Shown piece after piece: positions 43,600-52,805 of a DNA stretch of 64,000 nucleotides; the first letter of the stretch is position 1; every line of letters starts with the position of its first letter. Made by a program: the position numbers and the translations under genes. The notes under the pieces were generated by a model. It was not told the DNA's origin and made no database searches. It saw only the letters and a list, made by a program, of their open reading frames with translations. Source of the stretch: Asaia lannensis NBRC 102526 (GTDB taxonomy: Bacteria; Pseudomonadota; Alphaproteobacteria; Acetobacterales; Acetobacteraceae); assembly GCF_024054035.1 (NCBI RefSeq), contig NZ_JAMXQU010000001.1, positions 434,001-498,000 of the forward strand, given 5' to 3'.

Positions 43600-44490
43600 T
43601 TAATCGACGAAAACGCTTGCCGGATAACCCTGAGCGAAGAGATGCGCACGCAGGGTCGAGTGATTGACCTGCATGTCGATCATCTGGCGTACTTTCGGCT
43701 TGCCCTTATAGGCAATGCCGAGACCGGCCACGGCCAGCATGGGCAGATCATTGGTGCCGTCACCCGTGGTAAGGGCTGCCGAAGCCTTTACGCCGCGCTC
43801 TTCGAGAAGGCGGGTCAGATGCTCTTCCTTGCTGTTCGGCCCCAGAACCGGACCCACAAGTTTGCCGGTAAATACGCCATCTACAATGTCGAATTCATTG
43901 CCATAATGTTCATCGAAGCCGCAGGCTTCGGCCGCGCGGCTGGTGAAATAGGTAAACCCGCCCGAGACGAGCGCTGTGCGGGCATTATGGGCGTGCATGG
44001 TCTGGACCAGTGTGCGTGCACCGGCGTTGAGTTTCGTGTTCTGCCAGACGTCTTCAAGACAGGCAGCCGATTTGCCTTCGAGCAGGGCCACGCGCGCGCG
44101 CAGGGACTCTTCGAAGTCGAGACGACCGTTCATCGAGGCCTCGGTCAGTTTGACGACCTCATCGCCGATGCCGAGTGCAATAGCCACTTCATCGAGGGTT
44201 TCGCCATCGAGAATGGTGCTGTCCATATCGGCTACGAGTACGGCCTTGCGACGGCCACGTGTCTTGACCAGCAGGGTATCGACCTTATGGCGGGCAAGCG
44301 TGGCGCGTATGGTCGCGATAGTGGGCGCACCCGGTGCCGGGGTAGGGCAGGGGATCTCGACGGCCTCGCCGGCAGAAAGAACGACGGGGTTCTTGCCCTT
44401 GACCATGTTCCGCGCAATGTCGATGGCATCTTTGGACAGGGTGCCCTGTGCAGGGTCGGCAACGAGAACGAGAACGTAAGGTAAGGTCAT
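43600..44490 (-). CDS. serB: Phosphoserine phosphatase
   Basis: Last step of serine biosynthesis, a 296-residue HAD-superfamily phosphatase. The nucleophile motif is VLVADMDSTILDGETLDEVA (DxDxT). Motif II is ALVSGGFTYF and motif III/IV is TGDGTNDLPMLAVAGLGIAYKGKP. The N-terminal 75 residues (PYVLVLVADPAQGTLSKDAI) correspond to the regulatory ACT-like part. It is divergent from miaA with 41 bases between the ATGs, so the promoters overlap. Confidence 0.95.
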   Translation of the reverse strand: MTLPYVLVLVADPAQGTLSKDAIDIARNMVKGKNPVVLSAGEAVEIPCPTPAPGAPTIATIRATLARHKVDTLLVKTRGRRKAVLVADMDSTILDGETLDEVAIALGIGDEVVKLTEASMNGRLDFEESLRARVALLEGKSAACLEDVWQNTKLNAGARTLVQTMHAHNARTALVSGGFTYFTSRAAEACGFDEHYGNEFDIVDGVFTGKLVGPVLGPNSKEEHLTRLLEERGVKASAALTTGDGTNDLPMLAVAGLGIAYKGKPKVRQMIDMQVNHSTLRAHLFAQGYPASVFVD

Positions 44491-50004: not shown

Positions 50005-52098
50005 GTGTTGGCAGAAGACATAACAGACAGCTTGTTTGCGGCGCTCGATCGCCCTGATCTGCAAAGCCTGTCCGATCGTGTCGTGGTCAATCTCTCTCCC
50101 CGTCTTACCCATCCCTTCACGATCCGGGACAAAACGATCACGCTCGGTGCCGTAGCGTTCGAGCGCCCCGAGATCGCGCCTGTACTGCAGCGCTATGCGA
50201 TCGAACTGGGATTTCTGATCGACGCCTTGCCCGCGCATGAGGCGCCTCTGGCTTTTGTGGTCGCTGCACGCGTCACCGCGCTGTTCCACCGGCTCGATTG
50301 TGAGACCCTTTCCTTACCGCCGTCGCTTGCCTGGCTTGAGGATTTTGCCGCGGATAGACCGCCCACAGCCGGACATATCCAGGCGCTCTGGCCTGTTCTC
50401 ACCCAGTTCTGCCCGGACAAGGCGCATGGTAAGGCAGATTTCAACAGGCTGGTGGCGTGTCTTGCCCCTCTATGGGCCAGTCTGGCGCCTGCCGAATTTC
50501 TGATGGCCGATGGCGGCGATGAGCGTCTGGTTATCAATCCGCAGACCGGGCTCAACCGTTATGGCTGCTCGCACAGACCGCGCCCCTGGGCAGTCACCTT
50601 TTCCTCATCGACAGCGTCGTCTCTTTCCGAGCGTGGCTATCTCGGAGCCGAACGTGCACGTCGGGCTTTTCTGCTCGATGCCCTGACGCGCCTCGACGGC
50701 TCCTCTGCGCGCGAGGCCGCCTGTCTCGATGTGCGCGACAGACTTGCCGCGCTTTACGGGCTTGGCGGTCGCGATAATATCGTGCTTGCCGCATCGGGTA
50801 CGGATTGCGAACTTGCCGTGCTGGCCATGGGTATGATGCGCGCCCAGGGGCAGGCGATCGTCAATATCCTGATTGCGCCGGACGAAACCGGTAGTGGTGT
50901 CCCTCTGGCGGCACAGGGGCGGCATTTCGCTGCCGGGACGGCCCTTGGCGCGGCAGCAGACAAGGCACATTATCTGGACGGTTTTCCGACAGACACGACC
51001 CTGATCGGTATTCCCATACGCACTCCCGAAGGCACACCGAGGCCCTGCGTGGATCTCGATGCCGAGGTCGAGGCAACCGTGTTACGCGCGCTTGAAGTCG
51101 GGCATCATGTGATCCTGCATCAGCTCGATATGTCCAAAACGGGTCTGGTTGGTCCCTGTGCCGGCATGCTGTGTCGCCTTGCTGCCCGCTATCCTGCCCG
51201 TATCACGCTGGTGGTCGATGCCTGCCAGGCCAGACTGGCACCGCATCGTGTCAGAAACCTCGTGAAGGCCGGCATGCTCGTCATGACGACCGGTTCGAAA
51301 TTCCTGACAGGACCTCCGTTCTGCGGGGCGATTCTTCTGCCAGACTCATTTGTTGCGGCTCTGGCAGGCTATGCCCTGCCGCAAGGTCTTGCGGCCTATT
51401 TCCATCATTGCGACTGGCCGCAAACGGCTTCGCCATCTGTCCTCTCTCATGAGGGCAATCTCGGTCTTGCTCTTCGCTGGCAGGCGGCACTGGCTGAGAG
51501 CGAGGCCTTTGCCGCAGTGCCTCCGGCGCGCATTGTCGATACGTTGCGCCGTTTCGAGCACAACGCGCATGAAGCCATCGGGGCGCATCCCGCCCTGACG
51601 CTGCTGACCATGCCGGACTTCGACCGCAATCCGGTGGAAGAAGAGGTCTTGTGGGATACCATCCCGACCGTATTCTCCTTTCTGGTGGCCGATCCGGAAA
51701 ACCCCGAAAAACCGCTCGACCTGGAAAGGTCGCGTGCCCTGCATCGCTGGCTCAATGCCGATCTCTCACCGTGGATTGCCGAACATGATGCCGCGGGTGA
51801 GGGGCTTGCGGGGTTGCTTTGTCATCTCGGTCAGCCCGTCCCCGTGCCGCACCCGGATCTGGGTGGTGAAAATGCCGGTGCATTGCGTTTATGCGCAGGT
51901 GCGCGCCTCGTATCGGGCGAGCCCTCTCATGCCGGCCTGACGGACGATGTCCGTCTGGCCCGTGAATTTGCGGATGTGCGCAGGGCTCTGGCCAAAATCA
52001 CGGTGATTCTTGATCACTGGAGCGTTCTTGCACCGGTCGATCCCCAGCCACGTTACGCCCCTTATTCCTATCAGCCGAGAAAGTCCGGTTTATCATGA
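50005..52098 (+). CDS. Uncharacterised PLP-dependent fold-type I enzyme, 697 residues
   Basis: I do not recognise the exact family. Residues 1 to about 200 form a hydrophobic/helical domain with no known motif (LAFVVAARVTALFHRLDCETL, SLAPAEFLMADGGDERLVIN). From about 205 to 530 it looks like a fold-type I PLP enzyme: IVLAASGTDCELAVLAMGMMR (cofactor phosphate site), HQLDMSKTGLVGPC, VVDACQARLAPHR with a pyridine-nitrogen Asp (Asp405) and the probable Schiff-base lysine in TTGSKFLTGPPFCGAILLP (Lys432). The remainder is a C-terminal small domain. It starts with GTG 50005 after GGGGAA. Its stop overlaps the histidine phosphatase gene by ATGA. It may be a lyase or aminotransferase for a secondary product. 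Confidence 0.7.
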   Translation: MLAEDITDSLFAALDRPDLQSLSDRVVVNLSPRLTHPFTIRDKTITLGAVAFERPEIAPVLQRYAIELGFLIDALPAHEAPLAFVVAARVTALFHRLDCETLSLPPSLAWLEDFAADRPPTAGHIQALWPVLTQFCPDKAHGKADFNRLVACLAPLWASLAPAEFLMADGGDERLVINPQTGLNRYGCSHRPRPWAVTFSSSTASSLSERGYLGAERARRAFLLDALTRLDGSSAREAACLDVRDRLAALYGLGGRDNIVLAASGTDCELAVLAMGMMRAQGQAIVNILIAPDETGSGVPLAAQGRHFAAGTALGAAADKAHYLDGFPTDTTLIGIPIRTPEGTPRPCVDLDAEVEATVLRALEVGHHVILHQLDMSKTGLVGPCAGMLCRLAARYPARITLVVDACQARLAPHRVRNLVKAGMLVMTTGSKFLTGPPFCGAILLPDSFVAALAGYALPQGLAAYFHHCDWPQTASPSVLSHEGNLGLALRWQAALAESEAFAAVPPARIVDTLRRFEHNAHEAIGAHPALTLLTMPDFDRNPVEEEVLWDTIPTVFSFLVADPENPEKPLDLERSRALHRWLNADLSPWIAEHDAAGEGLAGLLCHLGQPVPVPHPDLGGENAGALRLCAGARLVSGEPSHAGLTDDVRLAREFADVRRALAKITVILDHWSVLAPVDPQPRYAPYSYQPRKSGLS

Positions 52099-52805
52099 CC
52101 CAGTCTGACAAGACGCCTGCAACCGACCCGAAGGCACATGGTCATTTTCTCGATTCCATGCAGCTTCCGTCTGGTGTCACACGGTTCTGGCTGATCCGTC
52201 ACGCCATTGTGGAAGCCTCGGCGCGCATGCGTATCTATGGGGCGATGGATGTCGAGCTCTGCTCGGAACATCTCGCCCTGCAGGTGCCGTATTACACCGC
52301 GCTCGGGCGTCGCCTGCCGCAGGATGCCAATTGGGTGGTCTCGCCCCTCAAGCGTGCGCAGGATACGGCGCGTGCCATATTCGACGCCGGATACGGCGTT
52401 CGCAACCTGACTATAGAGCCGCGCTTTACGGAACAATCCATGGGAGAATGGCATAATCTGCCCCACGAGGAACTCCCGCTGAAACTGCGCCAGACCGCGC
52501 ATAATTTCTGGTCTCTTTCTGCCTCCGAGCAGCCGCCGGGCGGTGAAAGCATGCTTGATGTCTGCGCCCGCGTCGGCCATTCGCTCGATGAAATGGCAGA
52601 TCTTCATGCGGGGCAGGATACCGTGGTGGTCAGCCATGGCGGGGCTATCCGCGCCGCCCTGTCGCATGCGCTCAATGTCCACCCCGATACGGGGCTGCGC
52701 TTTTCCATCCAGAACCTGTCGCTCTCGATCATCGAGCGTATCAACGGTGTCTGGCGTGTCGTGACCGTCAATGAACTACCGGCAGCACTTACTATCGCAG
52801 AATAA
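52095..52805 (+). CDS. Histidine phosphatase (phosphoglycerate mutase-like)
   Basis: A 236-residue branch-1 histidine phosphatase. The catalytic motif is FWLIRHAIVEAS (Arg35, His36), with Ala instead of Gly after His. VVSPLKRAQDTARAIF holds the second Arg, RFTEQSMGEWHNLP the Glu, and VVVSHGGAIRAAL the second His (His181). Members dephosphorylate small phosphate esters (CobC-, GpmB-like). A 28-residue N-terminal extension precedes the domain. It is translationally coupled to the PLP enzyme gene, so it probably removes a phosphate from that enzyme's substrate or product. Confidence 0.85.
   Translation: MTQSDKTPATDPKAHGHFLDSMQLPSGVTRFWLIRHAIVEASARMRIYGAMDVELCSEHLALQVPYYTALGRRLPQDANWVVSPLKRAQDTARAIFDAGYGVRNLTIEPRFTEQSMGEWHNLPHEELPLKLRQTAHNFWSLSASEQPPGGESMLDVCARVGHSLDEMADLHAGQDTVVVSHGGAIRAALSHALNVHPDTGLRFSIQNLSLSIIERINGVWRVVTVNELPAALTIAE

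Follow-up and report, generated by a model that had tools for sequence, protein, structure and literature searches.

The window, a 64,000-nucleotide stretch of the Asaia lannensis genome, carries two adjacent forward-strand genes that encode a large predicted pyridoxal phosphate (PLP) enzyme and a histidine phosphatase (Table 1). The lengths of the two open reading frames (ORFs) and their shared 4-bp ATGA, as given in the initial annotation, were confirmed in the sequence. The first ORF starts with a GTG codon at 50005 (translated MLAE), and the same start is used in the orthologs. In orthologous pairs across the acetic acid bacteria, the genes have the same overlap or a short spacing, which makes the arrangement more than a chance one, and the overlap suggests that the two genes are cotranscribed. 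The pair had also been credited with its own sigma-70 promoter, and this was not borne out: a consensus scan found 0 candidates, with 0.2 expected in shuffled sequences. Approximately 400 bp of apparently noncoding DNA lies upstream of the pair.

Table 1. Coordinates of the features discussed in the text
Feature	Position	Strand	Basis
PLP enzyme, 697 aa, unnamed class-V-like fold-type I family	50005..52098	+	ORF, GTG start; model and fold search
N-terminal domain, residues 1-168, mostly helical	50005..50508	+	Missing from core-only homologs; no close PDB fold match
Catalytic core, residues 169-697	50509..52095	+	Foldseek matches to EgtE, CsdA, and SufS; common to all relatives
Ser264-Gly265-Thr266, probable PLP-phosphate binding motif	50794..50802	+	Invariant in 35 sequences; subthreshold in-register matches to PLP enzymes
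Lys378, second invariant lysine (Asn in SufS)	51136..51138	+	35-sequence alignment; register from subthreshold match
Asp405-Ala-Cys-Gln408, probable PLP ring contacts	51217..51228	+	D405 and Q408 invariant; aligns with SufS VDACQ
Lys432 (TGSKF), predicted Schiff-base lysine	51298..51300	+	Invariant in 35 sequences
Stop and start codons overlapping in ATGA	52095-52098	+	Sequence; 4 bp
Branch-1 histidine phosphatase, 236 aa, near-universal Acetobacteraceae gene	52095..52805	+	PF00300; 190/200 genomes
SerB phosphoserine phosphatase (same window)	43645-44490	-	Above cutoff

A PLP-type fold without a family name

The curated libraries searched, Pfam and NCBIfam, name no family for the 697-residue protein. 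Pfam returned no family even at E values up to 10, with no match to aminotransferase class V (PF00266) over the curated cutoff, and NCBIfam returned nothing meaningful. Searching 33 homologs against Pfam produced only scattered noise, and no PDB chain was matched in sequence searches with the protein and with the A1 profile. The nearest named homologs are from Asaia and Swaminathania, and Asaia genomes carry the same PLP/phosphatase pair. In the assemblies of Asaia astilbis (L008:7971-10075) and Asaia platycodi (L010:7971-10074), either a frameshift or an assembly error breaks up the PLP ORF. When 399 genomes sampled from the phylum were searched with a profile, 25 carried the family, for the most part in a core-only form of ~440 to 600 aa. 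Neither Pfam nor NCBIfam has a model for it, and those annotated plasmid records that were examined label its members "hypothetical protein".

The AlphaFold model of the protein (pLDDT, 91.7; pTM, 0.93) has a fold-type I architecture by Foldseek. The top PDB matches were class-V-type enzymes of this fold (an EgtE-type carbon-sulfoxide lyase, CsdA, and SufS), followed by PLP decarboxylases, with E values of ~1e-11, a probability of 1.00, 13 to 16% identity, a TM-score of ~0.6 on the target, and a root mean square deviation of 6 to 7 Å. A viral fold library yielded generic fold-type I matches and nothing more specific. The protein represents a real, unnamed subfamily inside a known superfamily.

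In an alignment of 35 family members with a mean identity of 26%, the invariant residues are D172, R174, Y186, S201, T203, A204, S264, G265, T266, G296, K378, D405, Q408, R410, G430, S431, K432, F433, P437, F439, G487, R491, G609, and R628. Comparison of the family profile with cysteine desulfurase (SufS) fell below significance (E = 0.18), and this same subthreshold match has the expected register, with SNT over SKT (377-379) and VDACQ over VDACQ (404-408). Invariant K432 and D405 thus stand where fold and motif place the Schiff-base lysine and the ring-nitrogen aspartate. Lys432 would hold PLP as a Schiff base, an assignment that the model and the alignment support well. On the same grounds of fold and motif position, Asp405 is predicted to pair with the PLP ring nitrogen and Gln408 with O3′, while Ser264 to Thr266 would bind the phosphate.

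Because the fold matches class-V-type enzymes and Lys432, Asp405, and Gln408 are invariant, assignment of the large protein as a PLP enzyme appears well supported. The initial annotation had described it as an unrecognized large PLP enzyme, and this stands: it has no named family, structure search places it in fold type I, and Lys432 is invariant in 35 sequences. The confident match to a characterized class that had been named as counterevidence was found at the superfamily level (class-V-like fold type I) and no closer.

Alternatively, the large protein could have retained the fold and lost catalysis (with, say, a structural or regulatory role, binding PLP or nothing). Its great distance from all characterized enzymes would fit, as would a divergent second copy, present in one genome, that lacks both Lys378 and Lys432. 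We nevertheless consider this quite improbable, since all predicted PLP contacts are invariant in the 35 sequences despite their 26% mean identity. The divergent copy itself (L044:8545-10632, minus strand, in genome G108) has SETG for SKTG and TGSRF for TGSKF but keeps the aspartate; it is the only sequence in which Lys432 is replaced by arginine, and from these substitutions it is probably a noncatalytic paralog.

The N-terminal part had been described as a novel-looking domain of about 200 residues. It indeed has no known fold match, but its length is ~168 residues, as core-only homologs start matching near residues 159 to 166. Predicted alone, residues 1 to 168 form a confident fold (pLDDT, 91.5) with no close match among PDB folds (best E = 0.14), and the domain diverges faster than the catalytic core. 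Two genomes of another family (L094 and L096) apparently share part of it, so the domain is not strictly confined to the Acetobacteraceae.

Distribution of the two genes

Both genes were sought in a single set of 200 Acetobacteraceae genomes from the order Acetobacterales, with a threshold of E ≤ 1e-20 for the phosphatase. The PLP gene was present in 89 genomes and a phosphatase ortholog in 190; comparison of the two lists gave 102 genomes with the phosphatase and without the PLP gene. The phosphatase lay directly downstream on the same strand in at least 78 of the 89 PLP-bearing genomes. Among the other 11, it was on another contig in 2, had no match in 1 (G148), and in 8 had a position outside the matches listed; for four of these eight (L042, L049, L051, and L057), the flanks have no phosphatase copy beside the PLP gene. 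Conversely, four members of a single genus (L118, L119, L120, and L146) keep the phosphatase beside the rml cluster while having neither the PLP gene nor a remnant of it. Outside the acetic acid bacteria, the phosphatase is not adjacent to the PLP relatives. PLP proteins encoded next to the phosphatase group in a single clade (support, 96/89). Most simply, a PLP gene would have come to lie upstream of a long-standing core phosphatase gene on one occasion, with later loss from some lineages. We rejected a role connected with the rml (rhamnose) genes, which lie upstream in many acetic acid bacteria: this gene order is also seen where the PLP gene is absent, and it is missing beside the Asaia pair.

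These distributions bear on the suggestion, made in the initial annotation, that PLP chemistry and dephosphorylation form one two-step pathway in which the PLP enzyme makes or uses a phosphorylated compound that the phosphatase hydrolyzes. The ATGA overlap, the adjacency in most PLP-bearing genomes, and the single clade of phosphatase-adjacent proteins all speak for such a pathway, as does a SerK-like gene adjoining one distant PLP relative. Against them stand the many genomes with the phosphatase alone, the clean absence of the PLP gene where the phosphatase keeps its place, and the PLP relatives elsewhere that lack the phosphatase. A two-step pathway is unlikely because the phosphatase occurs without the PLP gene in about a hundred related genomes. 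The conserved adjacency leaves a functional link possible; even so, the phosphatase, as the obvious operon partner, is probably a misleading clue to the function of the PLP enzyme.

The phosphatase itself scored 141.5 bits against PF00300 (cutoff, 21.7), and the branch-1 residues R35, H36, R87, E113, and H181 are invariant in 19 of 19 orthologs. Its RHG motif reads RHA, as had been reported, but this is no defect: RHA is the norm in the orthologous group, and RHG was found in 1 of 19. By its distribution, the phosphatase looks like an Acetobacteraceae core gene, and it would act as a separate core enzyme on some phosphate ester. In three genomes without the PLP gene (L127, L145, and L135), it lies directly against a polysaccharide-export (Polysacc_synt) gene, which may hint at what it does.

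The phosphatase could instead belong to a known pathway, as an alpha-ribazole phosphatase (CobC) or a phosphoserine phosphatase, with the PLP enzyme as a pathway neighbor. Its best family and structure matches are indeed CobC and PspA/PSP1, and a cobalamin adenosyltransferase gene adjoins one PLP relative. However, the phosphatase fell below every cutoff tested among the NCBIfam equivalogs that it matched, including CobC TIGR03162 (97.1 bits; cutoff, 162.9) and PspA NF045917 (62.2 bits; cutoff, 350). The same genome carries a separate CobC-like gene beside CobB, itself below the CobC cutoff, and a SerB gene above its cutoff. Both roles were rejected on these scores and on the presence of the other two genes, and a known pathway uniting the pair seems to us very improbable. 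In an Acetobacter proteomics paper (PMC10742644), a histidine phosphatase is entered as GpmB without further specification, and it could not be linked to the Asaia gene.

Relatives outside the Acetobacteraceae

The genomic context of the PLP family was compared at 25 non-Acetobacteraceae loci with usable flanks, several of which are closely related and so are not 25 independent cases. An ATP-grasp protein of one of four kinds was encoded nearby in 22 loci and a PLP decarboxylase in 18. In the most frequent ATP-grasp protein, the N-terminal part is TPR-like by weak matches; the protein matched a LysX/RimK-type ligase profile at E = 5e-5. This protein and the PLP family occur together in 18 genomes, where 2 would be expected (Fisher P = 2.5e-17, with genomes that are not independent), and in 16 of these 18 the two genes adjoin. 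The core-only relatives have recurrent partners and probably act alongside a PLP decarboxylase and an amide ligase of the ATP-grasp type. No TPR/ATP-grasp protein was found when the A. lannensis genome was searched with the protein and its profile; what holds for the neighborhoods of the relatives may therefore not apply to Asaia.

In large alphaproteobacterial genomes that appear Bradyrhizobium-like from their size and gene content (L092 to L098), the cassette of decarboxylase, ATP-grasp, and PLP genes is embedded in a flagellar cluster, with flagellin genes on one side and FlgK/FlgE-type genes on the other. On Sinorhizobium medicae pSMED03 (L113), the PLP gene overlaps a large nonribosomal peptide synthetase (NRPS) gene and is followed by genes for SerK-like, SagB-type dehydrogenase, and phosphopantetheinyl transferase proteins, an apparent uncharacterized biosynthetic cluster. 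At three loci (L103 to L105), core-only relatives are divergently oriented beside a D-Ala-D-Ala-ligase-like ATP-grasp gene, unlike the TPR/ATP-grasp gene of other lineages.

The cassette appears to represent an amino-acid-derived pathway that has not been described, and Asaia would retain just its PLP member. More broadly, and tentatively, the PLP family may be the signature of such a small-molecule pathway across several proteobacterial classes (in one lineage within a flagellar cluster), with a two-domain derivative in the acetic acid bacteria that combines a new N-terminal fold with second-lysine chemistry new to class V. Literature searches on the pair, the cassette, and the PLP family turned up nothing specific, and an Asaia secretome paper (PMC12502724) yielded nothing of use. 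We regard the cassette as a more interesting lead than a PLP/phosphatase pathway, and the recurrent ATP-grasp and PLP decarboxylase partners provide a concrete handle for finding the product.

Likely chemistry and comparison with known enzymes

Taken together, the data lead us to favor, as the probable reading, a functional PLP enzyme whose class-V-like fold-type I family is unnamed, whose N-terminal domain is an addition in the acetic acid bacteria, and whose neighboring phosphatase is separate. Such an enzyme would most likely catalyze a lyase- or transferase-type reaction with an amino acid as the substrate, probably like its core-only relatives, and invariant Arg491, Arg628, and Lys378 may hold an acidic amino-acid-type substrate. 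By analogy with the nearest folds, a lyase-type reaction is weakly favored, though somewhat short of probable, and transamination is a lesser possibility; the only ground for this preference is that the closest folds belong to lyases and desulfurases. The enzyme is probably not a cysteine desulfurase, as there is no suitable conserved catalytic cysteine: C407, within the DACQ motif, is the only near-invariant cysteine in the 35-sequence alignment.

The downstream phosphatase shares the PF00300 family and catalytic residues with CobC, PspA/PSP1, and GpmB, its best solved relatives, but scores below the equivalog cutoffs and lies outside any cobalamin cluster. For the PLP enzyme, the closest comparison is with the EgtE-type carbon-sulfoxide lyase and with CsdA and SufS, with which it shares the predicted fold, an Asp-x-x-Gln motif with a lysine ~27 residues on, and the SGT motif. 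It differs from them in its 13 to 16% identity and TM-score of ~0.6 on the target, in having no Aminotran_5 match, and in its extra N-terminal domain; its family, moreover, conserves no catalytic cysteine and has Lys378 where Asn would stand. Group II PLP decarboxylases (Pyridoxal_deC) are a more distant comparison; the protein has no Pyridoxal_deC match, and a profile comparison with the decarboxylase was not significant, but these enzymes share fold type I, are among the Foldseek matches, and include a member encoded next to the PLP relatives.
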